The notes beneath the pieces were generated by a model that made no database searches, was not told the origin of the DNA, and saw nothing but the letters and a program-made list of their open reading frames with translations. This document shows, piece by piece, positions 81 through 32,513 of a stretch of DNA of 46,041 bases (position 1 is the stretch's first letter; every line of letters begins with the position of its first letter). Origin of the DNA: Acidobacteriota bacterium (GTDB lineage Bacteria; Acidobacteriota; Thermoanaerobaculia; Multivoradales; JAGPDF01); the NCBI GenBank assembly GCA_012521815.1, contig JAAYLR010000215.1:1-46041 (forward strand), in the 5' to 3' direction. The position numbers were made by a program, and so were the translations under genes.

Positions 81-1481
81 TCACCGCTCGTCGTCGGCGA
101 GCGGAAAGAGCGGCGCCTGGGCCGGATCGCCTCCGGTCGGAGCCACCCGGTAGTCACCGGACCAGCAGGCGGTACAGAAGCTCTCGGCCGGGCTGTCCAC
201 CACGCCGAGCAGGCCTTCGAGCGAGAGATAGCCGAGCGAGTCCGCCCCGATGAACTGCCGGATCTCCTCCAGCTCGCAGCGCGCGGCGATGAGGTCGGTC
301 CGCCGGGGCGTGTCCATGCCGTAGTAGCAGGGCCAGCGGGTGGGCGGGGAGGAGATCCGCAGATGGACCTCCCGCGCTCCGGCTTCGCGCACCATCTGCA
401 CGATCTTCCGGGAGGTGGTGCCGCGGACGATCGAGTCGTCGACGAGCACGACCCGCCGCCCCGCGATCACCCCGCGCACCGGGTTGAGCTTCACCTTCAC
501 GCCGAAGTTCCGGATCGTCTGTTTCGGTTCGATGAAGGTCCGGCCGACGTAATGGTTCCGGATCAGCCCGAACTCGAGCGGCAGGCCGGATTCGCGGCTG
601 AAGCCGAGGCCGGCGAGCAACCCGCTGTCGAGCACCGGCACCACGAGGTCGGCCGCCGCCGGCTGCTCGCGAGCGAGCTGGGCGCCCATGCGGCGGCGCA
701 CCTCGGCGACGCTCTCGCCGAAGAGGAGGCTGTCGGGGCGGGCGAAATAGACGTGCTCGAAGATGCAGCGGGTCGGCCTCGTGCTGCCGCACAGGCGATG
801 ACTCTCGATCGCGCCGGCGCCGTTGCGCAGCGCGATCACCTCGCCGAGCTCGACCTCCCGCACGATCCGCGCCCCGAGCAGGTCGAACGCCCCGCTCTCG
901 GAGGCGAAGCAGGGCGTGCCGTCGAGATCGCCGAGCAGCAGCGGGCGGAAGCCGTGGCGATCCCGGGCCGCCACCAGCACCTCCTCGCCGAGGAGGAGGA
1001 GCGAGAACGCTCCCTCGACCTGTTCGAGCGCCACCATCAGCGACTCCACCACGTCGCGGCGCGGGTTGCGCGCCATCAGGTGGAGCACGACCTCGGTGTC
1101 GCTCGTCGTCTGGAAGATCGAGCCCGACCGCTCGAGCTCGCGGCGCAGCTCGCCGGCGTTGGTCAGATGGCCGTTGTGGACGACGGCGAGAGTGCCCATC
1201 GAGGTCCGCACCGCGATCGGCTGCGCGTTCATCAGGGCGCTCGCGCCCGCCGTCGAGTAGCGGGTGTGGCCGATGGCCCGGCGGCCGGGGAGACGGCGGA
1301 GCACCTCGCCGTCGAAGATGTCGGCGACGTGCCCCATGCCGACCTTCACGGCGAACCGGCCTTCGTCATCGGCGGTGGCGATGCCGGCGCTCTCCTGCCC
1401 CCGGTGCTGCAGGGAGTAGAGCCCCAGGTAGGTGAGGTTCGCGGCGTCGTCGTGACCGCCGATACCGAAGATGCCGCACAT
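81..1481 (-). CDS. purF: Amidophosphoribosyltransferase (PurF)
   Basis: This enzyme catalyses the committed step of purine synthesis: PRPP plus glutamine gives phosphoribosylamine. The protein is 466 aa, normal for the family. The Ntn-hydrolase glutaminase nucleophile is Cys2 (MCGIFGIGG), directly after the initiator Met, so no propeptide is encoded. The PRPP-binding loop VVLVDDSIVRGTT lies at about 344-356. Four cysteines match the [4Fe-4S] ligand positions of the B. subtilis-type enzyme: Cys239 (RCIFEHVYFARP), Cys385 (PCYYGMD), and Cys436 and Cys439 (FCTACW). A cluster is therefore likely. It lies 45 nt after purL and 33 nt before purM, so it is part of the pur operon. Confidence 0.97.
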   Translation of the reverse strand: MCGIFGIGGHDDAANLTYLGLYSLQHRGQESAGIATADDEGRFAVKVGMGHVADIFDGEVLRRLPGRRAIGHTRYSTAGASALMNAQPIAVRTSMGTLAVVHNGHLTNAGELRRELERSGSIFQTTSDTEVVLHLMARNPRRDVVESLMVALEQVEGAFSLLLLGEEVLVAARDRHGFRPLLLGDLDGTPCFASESGAFDLLGARIVREVELGEVIALRNGAGAIESHRLCGSTRPTRCIFEHVYFARPDSLLFGESVAEVRRRMGAQLAREQPAAADLVVPVLDSGLLAGLGFSRESGLPLEFGLIRNHYVGRTFIEPKQTIRNFGVKVKLNPVRGVIAGRRVVLVDDSIVRGTTSRKIVQMVREAGAREVHLRISSPPTRWPCYYGMDTPRRTDLIAARCELEEIRQFIGADSLGYLSLEGLLGVVDSPAESFCTACWSGDYRVAPTGGDPAQAPLFPLADDER

Positions 1482-1526: not shown

Positions 1527-3737
1527 TCACCGCCCGAGCGCCCGCGGCAGCGCCGTCGCCCATTCCCGGGCGAGCGCGGCGACCTCGACCCGCAGCCGGC
1601 CGCCGTCGAACTCCACGCTCAGCTCCTCGCCACCCACCTCGCCCGCCTCGTGGACCGGCACCCCCGCCTCCTCGGCGAGCCGCAACGCCCGCTCGACGCT
1701 GCGTGGCGGCACCGCCACGAGCGCCCGCGCCTGGCTCTCGGAGAAGAGCGCCGCCGCCCCCAGCGCGGGGAAGCGGAGGGTAGCGCCGAGGCGACGGGGG
1801 AAGGTGGCTTCGGCCAGCGCCACCGCGAGCCCCCCTTCGGCGAGATCGTGCGCGGTGCGCACCAGCCCGGCGCCGACGAGCTGCCGCAGGAGCCGGGCGA
1901 GCCGCGCCTCGGCCGCGAGGTCGACCGCCGGCGGGAGGCCCTGCTCGCTCTCGTAGCAGTGCCGCAACCAGGCCGCGCCGCCGAACTCCTCCCCGGTGGT
2001 GCCGAAGAGGAGCACCCGGTCGCCGGGATGCGCGAAGCCGGGCTCGGGCAGGTTGCCGAGGTCCGGGATCAGCCCCACCATCGCGACGGTCGGGGCCGGA
2101 TGGATCGAGCGGTCGGCGGTGGTGTTGTAGAGCGAGACGTTGCCCGAGATCACCGGCACGGCGAGCGCCCGGCACGCTTCGGCCATCCCGAGCACGCACT
2201 CCCGGAACGACCACATCACCTCCGGGATCTCCGGGCTGCCGAAGTTCAGGCAGTCGCTGAGCCCCACGGGTTCGGCCCCGACGCAGGCGAGGTTGCGCAC
2301 CGCCTCGGCCACCGCCTGGGCGCCCCCACGGCGCGGATCGAGATGGCAGTAGACCGGGTTCACGTCGCAGGTCATCGCGAGGCCGGTAGGCGTCCCCTTG
2401 AGCAGGAGCACCGCCGCGTCCCCGCCGGGGCCGGCGACGGTGTTCGTCCGCACCGTATGGTCGAACTGCCGGTAGAGCCACTCCTTGCTCGCGAGCTCCG
2501 GGGTGGCGAGCAGCCTCTTCAGATCCCCGGCCGGATCGGCGGACACCGGGACCGCGGGCGGCGCCTGGCGGGCGGCGAGATCGGCGGGGGCCGCCACCGG
2601 ACGGCGGTAGACCGGCGCCTGGTCGGTGAGCGGCCGGATCGGCAGGTCGGCGGCGAGCCGCCCCTGGAAGTGGACCCGCACGCGCCCGTCGGCGGTCAGC
2701 TCGCCGATGCGCGCCGTCTCGACGCCCCACTTCCGGAAGACCCGCTCGACCTCCTCCTCGCGGCCCCGCTTCACGACGAGCGCCATCCGCTCCTGCGACT
2801 CGGAGAGCATGATCTCGTACGCCCCGAGCCCGGCGCCGCGCAGCGGCACGCGGTCGAGGTCGAGGCGCAGGCCCATCCCCCCGCGCGCGGCCATCTCGAG
2901 CGTCGAGCTGGTGATCCCGGCCGCCCCCATGTCCTGGACGGCGACGATCGCCTGCGACCGCATCGCCTCGAGGCACGCCTCGAGGAGCACCTTCTCGGCG
3001 AACGGATCGCCCGCCTGCACGATCGGCAGCTCCTGCTCCCGCCCGTCGTCGAAGCTCCCGGAGGCCATGGCGGCGCCGTGGACCCCGTCGGCGCCGGTCC
3101 GGCTGCCGGCGTAGAGCAGCGGGTTGCCGACGCCGGCCGCCCGGGCGCGGAAGATCCGCTCCCGGCGGGCGATGCCGAGCGCGAAGGCGTTGACGAGGAT
3201 GTTGCCGTCGTAGCTCGGGTGGAACCCCGTCTCGCCGCCGACGCACGGCACCCCGACGCGGTTGCCGTAGTCGGCGATGCCGCGCACGACGCCGTCGACC
3301 AGCGCCCGCATCCGCGGCGCCTCGAGCCGGCCGAAGCGGAGCGAATCCATGCAGGCGATCGGCCGCGCCCCCATCGTGAAGATGTCGCGCAGGCAGCCAC
3401 CCACCCCGGTGGCCGCCCCCTGATACGGCTCGAGGAAGCTCGGGTGGTTGTGGCTCTCGATCTTGAACACCGCCACCCAGCCGTGGCCGATGTCCACCAC
3501 CCCGGCGTTCTCCCCCGGCCCCTGGACGACATGCGGCCCGCTCGTGGGGAACTCGCGCAGATGGACCTTCGACGACTTGTACGAACAGTGCTCCGACCAG
3601 AGCGCCGAGGTGATGCCGAGCTCGGTCCAGGTCGGGGTGCGGCCGAGCAGCTTGACCAGCCGCTCGTACTCCTCCGCGACGAGACCGTGCGCCGCGGCCA
3701 GCGCGGCGTCGACCCGCGGCTCCTCCCGCTTCTTCAT
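1527..3737 (-). CDS. purL: Phosphoribosylformylglycinamidine synthase, small PurL subunit
   Basis: This is the ATP-dependent synthetase subunit that turns FGAR plus ammonia into FGAM. At 736 aa it is the short PurL type, which lacks a fused glutaminase and works in a complex with PurS and PurQ, both encoded directly upstream. The N-terminal [19 protein letters not shown] region and the later [17 protein letters not shown] and [16 protein letters not shown] segments are typical of the duplicated AIR-synthetase-like domains. The ATG at 3735-3737 overlaps the purQ stop (ATGA at 3734-3737), implying translational coupling. Its ammonia supply depends on PurQ, whose nucleophile appears to be lost (see purQ). 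Confidence 0.97.
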
Positions 3738-4444
3738 CGTCCGCCTCCCGCCCCCCGGGCCGCTCCGACCGCGCCCGCGAAGAAGGCTAGCCCGGCCGTG
3801 TTGCCCAGGATCTCCTCGGCGCAGCGCTCCGGATGGGGCATCAGGCCGAGCACGTTGCCGCCGGCGTTGCAGAGTCCCGCGATCGCGTTCGCGGCGCCGG
3901 TCTCGTCGGCGGCCGCCTCCGGTACCGTGCCGTCGGCCTCCACGTAGCGGAAGACGACCTGCCGGGCGGCCTCCAGCTCGGCGAGCGCCGCCGGCCGATG
4001 CGCGTACCGTCCGGCGCCGTGCGCGACCGGCATGCGGACGATCTCCCCCTCGCGGTAGCGGCCGGTGAACGGCAGGTCGGTCCGCTCGACGCGCAGGTGG
4101 ACGTCGCGGCAGACGAAGCGCCCGCTCCGGTTCGCGAGCATCGCGCCGGGGAGCAGCCCCGCTTCGAGGAGGATCTGGAAACCGTTGCCGATCCCCGCGA
4201 CCAGCCCGCCCCGCTCGGCGTGCCGCCGCACCGCCGCCATCACCGGCGCCTGCGCGGCGAGGGCGCCGGGGCGCAGGTAGTCGCCGTACGAGGCGCCGCC
4301 CGGCAGCACCACCAGGTCACACCCCTTCAGGTCGCTCGCCTGGTGCCAGAGGAAGGTCACCTCCTGGTCGAGGACGTGCTTGAGGACGTGGTAGACGTCA
4401 TGGTCGCAGCTGGCGCCCGGAAAGACGACGACCCCGCATCTCAT
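3734..4444 (-). CDS. purQ: PurQ glutaminase subunit of FGAM synthase, nucleophile Cys86 replaced by Gly
   Basis: A class-I glutamine amidotransferase that normally hydrolyses glutamine and channels ammonia to PurL. It is 236 aa. The start [16 protein letters not shown] was chosen because it is the conserved family beginning and its ATG overlaps the purS stop (ATGA, 4441-4444); the frame stays open upstream without similarity. The nucleophile elbow, normally GICNGFQIL, reads GIGNGFQIL here. Residue 86, encoded at 4187-4189, is Gly (GGC) rather than Cys (TGC), a single-base difference. The other two triad residues are kept (His204 and Glu206 in MPHPER). The rest of the protein looks intact, so this is either a real loss of glutaminase activity or a base error. 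Confidence 0.93.
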
Positions 4445-4695
4445 GACCGCGGCCGCCCCTCCACCTCGATCTCGTACTCCTCGACCATCGGGTTGGCGAG
4501 CAGCCGCTCGCACATCTCGCGCACCCGCTTGCCCGCCCGGGCGGCGGTGAGGTCGCCGAGATCGAGCTCGAAACGCCTGCCGGCGCGCACTTCGCGCACC
4601 TCGGAGAAACCCAGCCCCGCGAGCGCCTCGCGGATCGCCTTGCCTTCCGCATCGAGGATCTCGCGCCGCGGGTAGATCGTCACCGTCGCCTTCAC
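4441..4695 (-). CDS. purS: PurS, small subunit of FGAM synthase
   Basis: An 84-aa protein that bridges PurL and PurQ in the PurSQL complex. The sequence MKATVTIYPRREILDAEGKA and the C-terminal NPMVEEYEIEV segment are typical of PurS. The start is a GTG at 4693-4695, preceded on the coding strand by a strong GGAGGTGACAGA ribosome-binding site. It overlaps the stop of the upstream metallo-hydrolase (GTGA, 4692-4695), and its own stop overlaps the purQ ATG. A longer reading to 4941 is open but has no family similarity. Confidence 0.92.
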   Translation of the reverse strand: MKATVTIYPRREILDAEGKAIREALAGLGFSEVREVRAGRRFELDLGDLTAARAGKRVREMCERLLANPMVEEYEIEVEGRPRS

Positions 4696-15210: not shown

Positions 15211-16734
15211 ATGTCCGCCACCGCCATCGTCCCGGGTGCGCCCCGCCCCGCCTGGCTCGAGCCGCTGCTGCCGGCGTTCCGCCAGGCGCTCCTGCGGCGC
15301 GCCTTCGACGGCGGCAAGCCGCCGCTCCCCCGGCGCGTCTTCGTGAACCGGAACCTGCGCCTCGAGCGGATCCGCCACGTCGGCTTCGACCTCGACTGGA
15401 CGCTCGCCGAGTACGACCGGGAGGCGATCGACGCCGCGATCTTCGAGCTCGCGCTCGACTTCCTCATCGCCGAGAGCGGCTATCCGGCCGAGCTGCGCGC
15501 CGAGGCGGAGTTCCGTCCCGGCTTCCCGCGCCGGGGGCTGATCGTCGATCGCCAGCTCGGCATCGTCCTCAAGATGAGCCGGCACCGGTACGTCGGGCGC
15601 GCCTATCTCGGGCGCACCCCGCTCGACCGGGAGGAGCGGTTCCGCCGCTACCGGCTCGAGCCGCTCGACATCGGCAGCGACCGCTTCTACCGGGTCGACA
15701 CCCTCTTCGAGCTGCCGGAGGTGAACCTCTACAGCGAGCTCGTCGAGAGCGGCCGGCGCGATCCCGCGCGGATCGGCCACCGCACGCCGCAGGCCCTCTT
15801 CGACGACGTGCGCCACGCGGTCGATTCGATCCACGCCAACGGCTCGCTCAAGGCGCGGATCACCGCCGACCTGCCGCGCTTCGTGCCGCGCGATCCGGAG
15901 CTCGCGCTCGCTCTCGTGCGCCTCGCGCTCGGCGGCCGGCGCCTCTTCCTCCTCACCAACTCCGACTTCGCCTACACCGACCGGATCTGCTCCTACCTCT
16001 TCGACGGGGCGCTCCCGGGGCTCGGCTCGTGGCGCACCCTCTTCGATCTCGTGGTGACGAGCGCCGCCAAGCCCTCCTTCTTCCGCCGCGAGCGCCCGTT
16101 CGTGCCGCTCGCCGCCGACGGCAGCGAGGGCCCGCCGGTGGCGGCGCCGGCCTGGGGCGGGATCTACCGGGGCGGCTCGCGCGAAGGCCTGATGACGCTC
16201 CTCGAGGGGCCCGGCGAGCAGGTCCTCTACGTCGGCGACCACATCCACAGCGACGTGCTCACCTCGAAGCTGCGCACCACCTGGCGCACCGCGCTCATCG
16301 TGCGCGAGCTCGAAGAGGAGCTCGAAATCGACGCCGAGGTGGCGCCCGAGCTCCGGCAGCTCGCGTCTCTGCGCGAGGAGCTCTCCGGCCTCGGCCATCG
16401 CCTCGACGACCTGCGCGACGTCGTCCAGCTCGCCGGCGAGAGCGGGGAGAACGGCGAGCTGTTCGCGGCCGCCCGCACCCGGCTCGCCGAGCTCGAGGAG
16501 CGCCACCTCACGCTGCGCCTCCAGGCCGGCGAGCTCCAGGCGCGCATCTCCGCGCGCCACCACCCGATCTGGGGCCCGCTCTTCCGGCAGGGGAGCAACC
16601 AGAGCCTCTTCGGCGCCCAGGTCGAGGATTTCGCCTGTCTCTACACCTCCCGGGTCAGCAACTTCGCCCGCTACGGCACGAACCATTACTTCCGCGTGCT
16701 CGAGGACCCGATGACCCACGACCTCCCCGGGTAG
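15211..16734 (+). CDS. HAD-IG family 5'-nucleotidase
   Basis: A 507-aa member of the cytosolic purine 5'-nucleotidase (NT5C2-like) HAD family, which dephosphorylates nucleoside monophosphates such as IMP or GMP. HAD motif I is GFDLDWTLAEY (about 58-68), motif II FLLTNSDFAYT, and motif IV LYVGDHIHSDVLTSK. A helical insertion around LEIDAEVAPELRQLA to LEERHLTLRLQ is typical. It starts 25 nt after topA and ends 7 nt before trmFO. It is an extra gene within the otherwise conserved topA-trmFO pair. Substrate preference cannot be read from the sequence. Confidence 0.88.
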   Translation: MSATAIVPGAPRPAWLEPLLPAFRQALLRRAFDGGKPPLPRRVFVNRNLRLERIRHVGFDLDWTLAEYDREAIDAAIFELALDFLIAESGYPAELRAEAEFRPGFPRRGLIVDRQLGIVLKMSRHRYVGRAYLGRTPLDREERFRRYRLEPLDIGSDRFYRVDTLFELPEVNLYSELVESGRRDPARIGHRTPQALFDDVRHAVDSIHANGSLKARITADLPRFVPRDPELALALVRLALGGRRLFLLTNSDFAYTDRICSYLFDGALPGLGSWRTLFDLVVTSAAKPSFFRRERPFVPLAADGSEGPPVAAPAWGGIYRGGSREGLMTLLEGPGEQVLYVGDHIHSDVLTSKLRTTWRTALIVRELEEELEIDAEVAPELRQLASLREELSGLGHRLDDLRDVVQLAGESGENGELFAAARTRLAELEERHLTLRLQAGELQARISARHHPIWGPLFRQGSNQSLFGAQVEDFACLYTSRVSNFARYGTNHYFRVLEDPMTHDLPG

Positions 16735-20416: not shown

Positions 20417-20425
20417 TGCTATGAT
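20417..20425 (+). promoter_or_regulatory. Extended -10 promoter for hslVU, likely leaderless
   Basis: TGC-TATGAT is a near-ideal extended -10 and ends 7 nt before the GTG at 20433. The ATG ATG at 20421-20426, which could also be read as a start, lies inside the element and so would not be transcribed from it. This supports the GTG as the real hslV start. Confidence 0.5.
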
Positions 20426-20432
20426 GCCGGCC

Positions 20433-20972
20433 GTGTCCACCCCCCTCCACTCCACCACCGTGCTGCTCGTCCGGCGGAACGGCGCGGTCTGCCTCGCGAG
20501 CGACGGGCAGGTGACGCTCGGCAACACCGTGCTCAAGCGCGGAGCGAGCAAGGTGAAGCGGGCCGGCGGCGGCAAGGTGCTGGTCGGCTTCGCCGGCGGC
20601 GCCGCCGACGGCCTCGCGCTCTTCACCCGCTTCGAGGCGAAGCTCGACGAGTACCGCGGCAACCTCGAGCGGGCGGTCGTCGAGCTGGCCAAGGACTGGC
20701 GGACCGACCGGATGCTGCGGCAGCTCGAGGCGATGATGATCGTCGCCGACCGCGAGAAGAGCTACCTCGTCTCCGGCACCGGCGACCTCCTCCAGCCCGA
20801 CGAGGACGGCCTGCTCGCGGTCGGCTCCGGCGGTCCGTACGCGCTCGCCGCCGCCCGCGCCCTCGTCCGCCACACCGAGCTGCCGGCGCGCGCGATCGCC
20901 GAGGCGGCGCTCGGGATCGCCGCCGGGATCTGCATCTACACCAACGACCGCCTCACCATCGAGGAGCTGTGA
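20433..20972 (+). CDS. hslV: ATP-dependent protease proteolytic subunit HslV (ClpQ)
   Basis: This is the peptidase of the HslUV (ClpYQ) proteasome-like complex in the cytosol. From the GTG it is 179 aa. The catalytic Thr exposed by processing is expected at Thr8 in [13 protein letters not shown]. Other family marks are [40 protein letters not shown] and [14 protein letters not shown]. An ATG at 20421 with a GGAGG site is the alternative start. Its stop overlaps the hslU GTG (GTGA, 20969-20972). Confidence 0.95.
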
Positions 20973-22339
20973 GCGCGGGCGCCGGAACCCCCGTGGCGCT
21001 GGAGGAGCTCACCCCGCGCCAGATCGTCGCCGAGCTCGACCGCCACGTCGTCGGCCAGGCGGCGGCGAAGCGGGCGGTGGCGATCGCGCTGCGCAACCGC
21101 TGGCGGCGGCAGCGGCTCCCGCCCGAGGTGGCCGAGGAGATCCTGCCGAAGAACATCCTGATGATCGGCCCCACCGGCGTCGGGAAGACCGAGATCGCCC
21201 GGCGGCTCGCCAAGCTCGCGCGGGCACCGTTCGTGAAGGTCGAGGCGAGCAAGTTCACCGAGGTCGGCTACGTCGGGCGCGACTGCGAGGCGATGGTGCG
21301 CGACCTGATGGAGATGGCGGTGGCGATGGTGCGCGAGGAGCGGCGCGTCGCGGTGCGCCCGAAGGCCGCGGCGCGGGCCGAGGAGCGGCTGCTCGCCCTC
21401 CTCCTGCCGCCGACCCCGGCGCCGGGCGCCGTCACCACCTCCGCCCCGGTGGCCGAGGAGCCGTCGGCCACCCGCGAGAAGCTCCGCGAGCGGCTCCGCA
21501 GCGGCAGCCTCGACGACCGGCCGGTCGAGATCGAGGTGGACGACCGCTCGGGCCCGAGCCTCGAGATGATCGGCCCGCAGGGGATCGAGGAGGTCGGGAT
21601 CAACCTGAAGGAGATGATCCCCGGCTTCTTCGGCCGCAAGAGCCGGATCCGGGTCACCGTCGCCGAGGCGCGCGAGCTGCTCGAACAGGAGGAGGCCGAC
21701 GCCCTCATCGACCGCCAGCAGGTCGCCCGCGACGCCCGCCACCGGGTCGAGCAGGCGGGGATCATCTTCCTCGACGAGATCGACAAGATCGCCGGCCGCG
21801 AGCGCGGCCACGGCCCCGACGTCTCGCGCGAAGGGGTGCAGCGCGACCTCCTGCCGATCGTCGAGGGGACGACGGTGGCGACCAAGCACGGGCCGGTGCG
21901 CACCGACCACATCCTCTTCATCGCCGCCGGCGCCTTCCACATCGCCAAGCCGTCGGACCTGATCCCCGAGCTCCAGGGACGCTTCCCGATCCGGGTCGAG
22001 CTCGAGGCCCTCGGCGAGGCGGAGTTCCTGCGCATCCTCGTCGAGCCCGAGGCGTCGCTCACCCGGCAGTACACGGCGCTGCTCTCGACCGAGGGGGTGA
22101 CGCTGCGCTTCACCGACGGCGCGATCGCCGCGCTCGCCCGGCTCGCGGTGGAGGTCAACGCCGCGACCGAGAACATCGGCGCCCGCCGCCTCGCCACGCT
22201 GCTCGAACGCCTCCTCGAGGAGATCTCCTTCGCCGCCCCCGACATGGCCGGCGTCGAGCTGGAGATCGACGAGGGGTACGTGAGCCGGGCGCTCGCCGGG
22301 ATCGCCGAGAACCAGGACCTCTCCCGCTATGTGCTCTGA
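20969..22339 (+). CDS. hslU: ATP-dependent protease ATPase subunit HslU (ClpY)
   Basis: The AAA+ unfoldase that feeds substrates to HslV. It is 456 aa. Walker A is GPTGVGKT (67-74) and Walker [11 protein letters not shown] (about 265-274). The beginning [16 protein letters not shown], the central I-domain, the arginine-finger region ([12 protein letters not shown]) and the C-terminus ending LSRYVL, which docks into HslV, all fit the family. The GTG start overlaps the hslV stop. The next gene begins 11 nt before its stop. Confidence 0.96.
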
Positions 22340-31095: not shown

Positions 31096-32258
31096 TCGGG
31101 GGCGACGAGCCTCATTACGCGCTCCTCGCCCACTCGCTCGCCGCCGACGGCGATCTCGAGCTCGAGGACGACTACGAGGCCGTCGAGATGGGGAGCGCGG
31201 CAGCCGGCCGGAAGCGGGCCGGGCAGCGGCTCGACCGGCACCTCCGCGAACACGAAGGGCGTCTCGTGCCCGCCCATCCGGCCGGGATGCCCGCCCTCCT
31301 CGCGCCGCTGCTTGCCGTCCAGCTGGCGATCGCTCCCGCGGCGGCGCCCGACCTCCTGATCGGGCTGACCGGGCTCGCCCTCACCTTCGCCGCCCTGCTC
31401 GCCGGAGCGAGGCTCCTCGGCCGCTGGCTCGGAGAGCCGGTGACCGGAACGGTGGCGGCGCTCGCGACCTACTTCGCTTCCCCGCTCTGGTTCTCCTCGC
31501 GAACCTTCTTCACCGAGCCGTACACCTGGTCGCTCGCGGTCCTCTCGGTCGCGGCCGTGGCCGCGGGCCGGCTCGGCGCCGGCTCGCTCCTCCTCGGGCT
31601 GGCTCTGATCACGAAAGAGAGCGCCCTGCTGCTCGTGCTCGCGGTGCTCGGCGGCGCCGCAACCCGCCTGGGCCAGCGGCGAGCCGCCGCGCTCGCCGTG
31701 GGTCCCGTGCTGGCCGGGACGGCGTGGATCGCGAGCAACGTCGTCCGCGGGCTGCCGCCGCTCCACACTCCCCAACCCTTCCAGGCCGGAGACCTCCTCG
31801 AAGGTGTCAGCGGTCTCCTCCTCTCCGGCGATCGCGGTCTCGTCTGGTTCGCACCGATTCTCGTGGCCGGAGTCGTGATCTGGCTCACGGGAGCCGCGCT
31901 AGATGCGCTTCGGGGACGGCACCGGGCGGAGAGAGCCCTTCTCCCCTTCTCCCCTTCTCCCCTTCTCCCCTTCTCCCCTTCTCCCCTTCTCCCCTTCGCA
32001 CTTCTCGCCTTTGTCGCGTACTTCGTTCTGGCGGCCGCCTGGATCGACTGGCGTGGCGGTAGCGGGTTCGGTCCGCGCCTGCTGCTCCCCGGCCTTCCCG
32101 GTCTCGCCCTCCCCCTAGCCCTCGCGATCCGGACCGGGCAACGGGCGGTGCGCCTCGGGCTCGCCGCGCGCCCCGCGGTGACGGTGGCGGGCGTCGCTCT
32201 CGCCGCCTGGCTCGCCTCTCGCCTGCTGCGCCGGCTGCCTCCGGCGAGCCCGGCCTGA
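31092..32258 (+). CDS. GT-C (GT39-like) membrane glycosyltransferase, body of a frameshifted gene
   Basis: 388 aa from a TTG at 31092. The frame begins at [20 protein letters not shown], the acidic first-loop motif of GT39-type dolichyl/polyprenyl-phosphate-sugar glycosyltransferases, and continues with about eight hydrophobic segments. [20 protein letters not shown] and the late [20 protein letters not shown] are typical of this family. The first membrane helix is encoded in another frame upstream (30970-31095), so the intact gene would be 30970-32258. A tandem octanucleotide (31936-31997) encodes LLPFSPSP repeats in the middle. The protein may decorate surface glycans. Present activity is doubtful unless the frame is restored or reinitiation occurs. 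Confidence 0.7.
31936..31997 (+). repeat. Tandem octanucleotide repeat (CCCCTTCT)n
   Basis: Six perfect CCCCTTCT units (31943-31990) are flanked by partial units of 7 nt on each side, 62 bp in all. The unit is not a multiple of three, so loss or gain of one copy shifts the frame of the GT-C gene. In the present state the downstream frame matches the family C-terminus. Confidence 0.93.
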
Positions 32259-32339
32259 CCCTCGACGCCGCGGGCAGCCAACCCGGGGGGCTGCTCCCGG
32301 GGTCCGATCCGTACGGGTCATGAGCCCTTCTCCCTGCCC

Positions 32340-32359
32340 GGGTGCCAGGCGATCTGCGG
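32340..32359 (+). repeat. Third copy of the GGGTGCCAGGCGATYTGCGG repeat
   Basis: It is identical to 24238-24257 at 19 of 20 positions. It lies in the 265-nt gap before tyrS, which also holds a GGCGGCGT/ACGCCGCC hairpin (32361-32386). I see no gene in 32259-32523. Confidence 0.6.
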
Positions 32360-32504
32360 TGGCGGCGTGCTCAGGGGTACGCCGCCGGGAGGGGGGCGGC
32401 GAGGCGCAGCTGGCAGGCCTGCGGGCGGTCCACGAGACCGCTCGCGACCCTCAGCCAGCCGATCAGCCCCGGGAGGCCGCCGAGCCCGAAGAGCCCGGCG
32501 CCTC

Positions 32505-32513
32505 TGCTAACCT
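32505..32513 (+). promoter_or_regulatory. Extended -10 promoter for tyrS
   Basis: TGC-TAACCT ends 10 nt before the tyrS ATG. With a start site 6-7 nt downstream, the leader would be only 3-4 nt. No Shine-Dalgarno sequence or T-box-like leader precedes tyrS. Confidence 0.45.

Follow-up and report, generated by a model that had tools for sequence, protein, structure and literature searches.

Glutamine amidotransferases are textbook examples of tightly coupled enzymes, and the nucleophilic cysteine of PurQ is treated as indispensable. Class I amidotransferases without this thiol do not hydrolyse glutamine; free ammonia can generally still be used by the synthetase subunits. E. coli PurF has been quoted as an example of such ammonia use (PMC3261824). 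CPS1 has its catalytic Cys replaced and both glutamine site and tunnel altered, and it takes up ammonia from outside (PMC4655335); both CPS1 and the CPS III of Alcolapia fish keep a crippled glutaminase domain and are ammonia-specific, with changes in the glutamine site and the tunnel (PMC4655335, PMC7657897). In the purine pathway, PurF' of Crenarchaeota is an amidotransferase homologue without the catalytic Cys that has been proposed to use ammonia, and the Cys of PurQ was fully conserved in the archaea of the same study (PMC3261824). NAD synthetases include ammonia-dependent members, the family differing in glutamine versus ammonia as donor (PMC3376133). In the open-access literature searched we found no description of a Cys-less PurQ.

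Such a PurQ is encoded in a 46,041-nucleotide stretch of an Acidobacteriota genome (GCA_012521815.1, contig JAAYLR010000215.1), hereafter the window. The purQ gene (3734..4444, − strand) codes for the 236 aa subunit I of FGAM synthase; with its M1 codon at 4442-4444, residue 86 falls on 4187..4189, where GCC on the + strand gives GGC on the − strand, so that the nucleophile elbow reads GIGNGFQIL, with Gly where the nucleophile Cys is expected. The two other members of the Cys-His-Glu triad, His204 and Glu206, are kept (codons 204-206, 3827..3835, −), as is the MPHPER motif. The protein passes the family models PRK03619 (NF002957; 284 bits, cut-off 212) and TIGR01737 (266 bits, cut-off 178), and its AF2 model (pLDDT 94) has T. 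maritima PurQ as the closest PDB match (3d54_D; TM 0.84/0.94, rmsd 1.3), i.e. a class I GATase fold of the PurQ type. By family score and predicted fold it is a PurQ orthologue, and by its incomplete triad not a canonical glutaminase. The gene shares an operon on the − strand with purS (4441..4695, 84 aa, third subunit of the FGAM synthase complex) and purL (1527..3737, 736 aa, FGAM synthase subunit II); purF then follows as the next purine gene downstream (81..1481, −), with its N-terminal catalytic Cys2 kept (MCGIFG). The draft genome (2.95 Mb, 243 contigs, 98.6% complete) holds this one PurQ only, with no second PurQ and no second full PurL found in it. The differences of the window PurS do not clearly match those of Cys-less Bacillaceae. 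Elsewhere in the window (20421-22339, +), a proteasome-like peptidase gene precedes one for an AAA ATPase of the Cdc48 subfamily; the pair is apparently hslVU. The exchange of Cys86, the retention of His204 and Glu206 and the PurSQL operon, all noted in an earlier, sequence-only reading of this DNA, are borne out; its further statement that the rest of PurQ is conserved proved wrong, as altered near-invariant columns lie mostly in active-site motifs.

Among 93 columns conserved in at least 95% of the relatives, the window PurQ deviates at nine, including S11A, N12S, L83A, C86G, N180D, N182T and S184A, and the relatives show 0 to 7 deviations in the same test, mostly mild ones (gaps from truncated rows aside). 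F51A, E144A and N146R lie in columns slightly under the conservation cut. The changes fall on the GSNCD motif (codons 11-12, 4409..4414, −; Ala-Ser replacing Ser-Asn), the GGFSYGD motif (codon 51, 4292..4294, −; Ala replacing Phe/Trp), the HGEGN motif (codons 144-146, 4007..4015, −; Ala-Gly-Arg replacing Glu-Gly-Asn) and the NPNGS region (codons 180-184, 3893..3907, −; DETGA replacing the N-x-N-G-S motif). The mutants N1051A and S1052D of Salmonella PurL have been crystallised (PDB 7dw7 and 6lyl, by their entry titles), which marks the N12 loop as a known functional part. This presupposes that N12 is N1051 of Salmonella PurL, an equivalence that we assume from the residue numbers in PMC3815217. 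Pro59 (4268..4270, −) is common among Cys-less PurQs and was considered as a signature residue as well; its value is weakened by T. maritima PurQ, which has P59 together with an intact Cys.

An alignment of close relatives, proposed in the sequence-only reading as a check, gave Cys86 in every PurQ of the same order that covers the site (41-42 sequences). One of these comes from the same genus; its PurQ is 88% identical to the window PurQ over 102 aa and has the standard residues where readable. Across these 102 codons the two genes differ synonymously at 22 codons and nonsynonymously at 12 (dN/dS 0.15); the nonsynonymous changes, which include S11A, N12S, F51A, A59P, S66A, V83A and C86G, lie mostly on signature sites. 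Judged from these codons, purQ is under constraint yet altered at selected places. In 396 genomes of the phylum searched for a PurQ elbow whose nucleophile codon does not start with T, the window alone was found. In the PurQ tree, the window PurQ nests among 26 Cys PurQs in a clade with good support, and the loss of Cys is therefore the window lineage's own.

The same loss recurs in other bacteria. A public scan of one genome per species (GTDB 220) with a strict elbow motif, excluding nucleophile codons that start with T (so that all frequencies are lower bounds), returned at least 119 stretches, of which tblastn confirmed at least about 90 as real PurQ genes; the remaining matches listed are chance hits, such as a repeated sequence in Leuconostoc that resembles a sugar epimerase. 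Among the matches listed, Gly is the commonest residue at the nucleophile position, followed by Ser, Ala and Arg; among the Cys-less lineages are Sporosarcina, Bhargavaea, Lederbergia, Siminovitchia, Tepidanaerobacter, Thermacetogenium, Actinomyces/Gleimia, Propionibacteriaceae and some archaea, and many of the records are isolates. About 21 of 35 genomes of the Lederbergia family (Bacillaceae) are Cys-less; Cys-less genomes are a minority in Planococcaceae and two Bacillota classes, and a sample of 99 Actinomycetales contains a single one (the central genome of the sample). A second small PurQ is absent from 27 of 32 Cys-less genomes, the rest showing a second PurQ in a few cases or short or large-PurL matches. 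Two PurQ genes occur in genomes G440, G442, G452 and G481, the last with one Cys and one Gly copy lying apart, a natural pair for experiments.

The loss of Cys is accompanied by a recurrent set of further changes. In the Lederbergia family, 10 Cys PurQs read S11, N12, F51, C86 and E144, whereas 20 Cys-less PurQs mostly read T11, S/T12, A/T51, G86 and K/Y/N144, with the exception of one Ala86 PurQ that still has S11 and E144. When 83 Cys PurQs are compared with 108 Cys-less ones, columns 51, 12 and 144 separate the two groups best after column 86; the window PurQ reads S12, A51, P59, G86 and A144 at the signature columns. The same split is observed in Planococcaceae and in the Tepidanaerobacter class, and partly in the Syntrophomonad class. 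The signature is not universal, since some Cys-less lineages (Syntrophomonads, Rhodobacteraceae) retain F51 or N12. Two MAGs of Alphaproteobacteria/Rhodobacteraceae (L112, L081) and one of Verrucomicrobiia (L059) carry Arg at the nucleophile position and retain both N12 and F51; a recent loss or an error in the sequence may account for them. The PurQ tree implies seven changes of Cys state, at least three of them forced by well-supported branches, with few Cys controls for many of the lineages.

PurL changes along with PurQ. The PurLs of the window and of the Cys-less Bacillaceae deviate from those of Cys-bearing genomes at the same sites: C160, S233, K236, V242 and Y425. In the window, Arg replaces Cys at codon 160 (3258..3260, −), Ser233 is changed to Arg and Lys236 to Glu (codons 233-236, 3030..3041, −), Ala replaces Val at codon 242 in the QVGDPF motif (3012..3014, −), and Phe replaces Tyr at codon 425 in the QYDH motif (2463..2465, −). 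The sites were then tested in lineages outside the discovery set, namely Planococcaceae and the Tepidanaerobacter and Syntrophomonad classes: in all three, genomes with a Cys PurQ keep PurL C160, V242 and Y425 with rare exceptions, and those with a Gly PurQ are without C160 and mostly without V242 and Y425. Over 160 genomes, C160 is present in 67 of 69 Cys versus 3 of 90 Cys-less genomes, V242 in 68 of 69 versus 15 of 89, and Y425 in 67 of 68 versus 18 of 89. Kinship was taken into account with a PurL tree built without the tested columns (a quick tree offering few independent contrasts, nine in all), on which the Cys state of PurQ needs at least nine changes. In these nine contrasts, PurL 160 is concordant in 7.4 and opposite in 0.1 on average (sign test p ~0.016), PurL 242 concordant in 7.0 and opposite in 0 on average (p ~0.016), and PurL 425 gives p ~0.03; K236E is weaker than these three sites (5 of 8 contrasts). 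Thirteen conserved PurL columns are altered in three or more of five further Cys-less groups; the window PurL is altered at 6 of these 13, versus 11 of the 241 remaining conserved columns (Fisher p 4.6e-5). The same-genus relative has Tyr at 425, and the part of its PurL with sites 160-242 is missing from the assembly. In the AF2 model of the window PurL (pLDDT 92), low-confidence blocks at about 221-240 and 421-430 contain or adjoin the changed sites 233-242 and 425; these blocks may be mobile loops next to the active site.

PurQ is not the only amidotransferase of this genome to have lost its nucleophile. CarA, the small subunit of carbamoyl-phosphate synthetase (locus L416, contig C1 of the window genome, 6337-7458, −), passes TIGR01368 (335 bits, cut-off 307), and in a full-length alignment to E. 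coli CarA it carries Cys269 to Gly, Gln273 to Leu, His353 to Gln and Glu355 to Gly, so that the whole triad Cys269/His353/Glu355 is absent. The G+C content of its contig is similar (0.73), and CarA may have lost its triad before PurQ lost its Cys. TrpG/PabA-like and PyrG proteins have Cys and the HPE motif intact; with Cys kept in these and in PurF, glutamine is still used elsewhere in the organism. A Pfam PF00117 search of the whole genome (98.6% complete) found no GuaA- or HisH-type amidotransferase domain. On contig C89, two class I amidotransferase-like genes with identical scores (L168 and L169, at 15580-15987 on the + strand and 32106-32513 on the − strand) may represent an inverted duplication or else an artefact of assembly.

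Taken together, the loss of the nucleophile and the joint changes in PurQ and PurL lend strong support to the proposal of the sequence-only reading that this PurQ is glutaminase-dead, and it is quite probable that the window encodes a real, expressed-looking, inactive PurQ kept in an FGAM synthetase remodelled for free ammonia. According to this reading, the lineage would have lost the thiol (C86G) after its split from the genus mate, the glutamine pocket would have been remodelled at S11A, N12S, F51A and E144A besides, and PurL would have been altered at 160, 233, 242 and 425, as appears to be the case whenever the Cys of PurQ is gone. Free NH3, we infer, is most likely what the complex uses to aminate FGAR, PurQ probably being retained as a structural part whose emptied pocket possibly still opens into the ammonia tunnel; in this genome, CarA has gone the same way. 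More broadly, the data suggest that the same package of PurQ and PurL changes arose separately in many bacteria as a repeated switch from glutamine to ammonia. As a tentative extension, which may well be wrong, bacteria might have made FGAM synthetase ammonia-driven repeatedly by stereotyped changes, in which the emptied PurQ pocket (N12S, F51A, C86G) becomes an entry port for NH3, active-site loops of PurL adapt (C160x, S233x, V242A, Y425F) and CarA follows in some genomes. The recurrence of small replacements (Ser, Ala, Gly) makes such a port plausible; CPS1 illustrates that an ammonia entrance can lie elsewhere than in the glutamine pocket.

The evidence can also be read without adaptation to ammonia entry: PurQ might be a dead remnant that only holds the complex together, with its pocket and the PurL sites drifting under relaxed constraint and ammonia still the donor. 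We regard this as possible but doubtful. The catalytic His is also gone in about a quarter of the Cys-less PurQs among the matches listed, and PurL 160 is replaced by many different residues, as relaxation predicts; the other replacements, however, are not varied (F51 mostly Ala, N12 Ser/Thr/Gly, V242 mostly Ala, Y425 always Phe, and this repeatedly), and the dN/dS reported above speaks for purifying selection on purQ. A retained amidotransferase activity through another nucleophile, or ammonia delivered by another, docking glutaminase, would fit the conservation of His204 and Glu206 in the window and of Glu206 nearly everywhere. Yet most Cys-less genomes are without a second PurQ, the discriminating columns show no new conserved Cys, and further residues of the glutamine-site motifs are lost along with the Cys, which makes this explanation improbable.

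Since the same residues recur across distant lineages, the Cys-less PurQ-PurL pair could in principle have been gained from another Cys-less lineage by horizontal transfer or recombination, but the window proteins are 63-88% (PurQ) and 64-82% (PurL) identical to those of their own order and genus, whereas their identity to Cys-less proteins of other lineages is only 43-53% and 35-49%, and PurQ nests among its Cys relatives; we consider such a transfer highly improbable. The least probable explanation is a one-base sequencing or assembly error in a draft metagenome assembly, which the sequence-only reading had named as the main alternative. The draft consists of 243 contigs, GGC is one base away from TGC, and all close relatives have Cys; still, several independent motif residues of PurQ and PurL are changed together and in the same direction as in isolates of other phyla, and CarA of the same genome is affected too.

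As to the source of ammonia, several Cys-less lineages are ureolytic or originate from ammonium-rich sites. In Bacillaceae and Planococcaceae, urease is commoner in Cys-less genomes (16 of 27 versus 8 of 43; Fisher p 7e-4, a statistic that ignores kinship); for the two families apart, p is 0.17 and 0.014. A search of the window genome for urease alpha gave no match; urease was thus rejected as the ammonia source of this organism, and the urease link does not explain the present case. Sporosarcina pasteurii has been reported to need ammonium for growth (PMC8621315), and Sporosarcina genomes other than S. pasteurii carry a Cys-less PurQ, a candidate link to physiology. Families in which close species differ in Cys state are natural experiments on the uncoupling of glutaminase and synthetase; they could show which PurL residues take part in the coupling or in the ammonia tunnel, and under which nitrogen supply uncoupling is possible. 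They also call for caution in annotation, as Cys-less PurQs pass the family cut-offs and get named glutamine-hydrolysing.

Set against the known systems, the window PurQ differs from the NAD synthetases by the fold of the glutaminase domain. PurF' of Crenarchaeota is a class II enzyme that accompanies an intact PurF as a second copy, whereas here it is the genome's sole PurQ that is affected. T. maritima PurQ, of a small-PurL FGAM synthetase (PDB 3d54), shares with the window PurQ the fold, the length, the purS/purL operon, His204/Glu206 and MPHPER; unlike it, the window PurQ is without the nucleophile Cys and has altered GSNCD, GGFSYGD, HGEGN and NPNGS motifs. CPS1 and CPS III belong to another enzyme and pathway, are eukaryotic and have a single lineage history, compared with many losses in bacteria. 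The window PurSQL nevertheless resembles CPS1 in that the Cys is lost with the domain kept and that changes are found both in the glutamine site and on the synthetase side, with the use of ammonia being the presumed outcome here.
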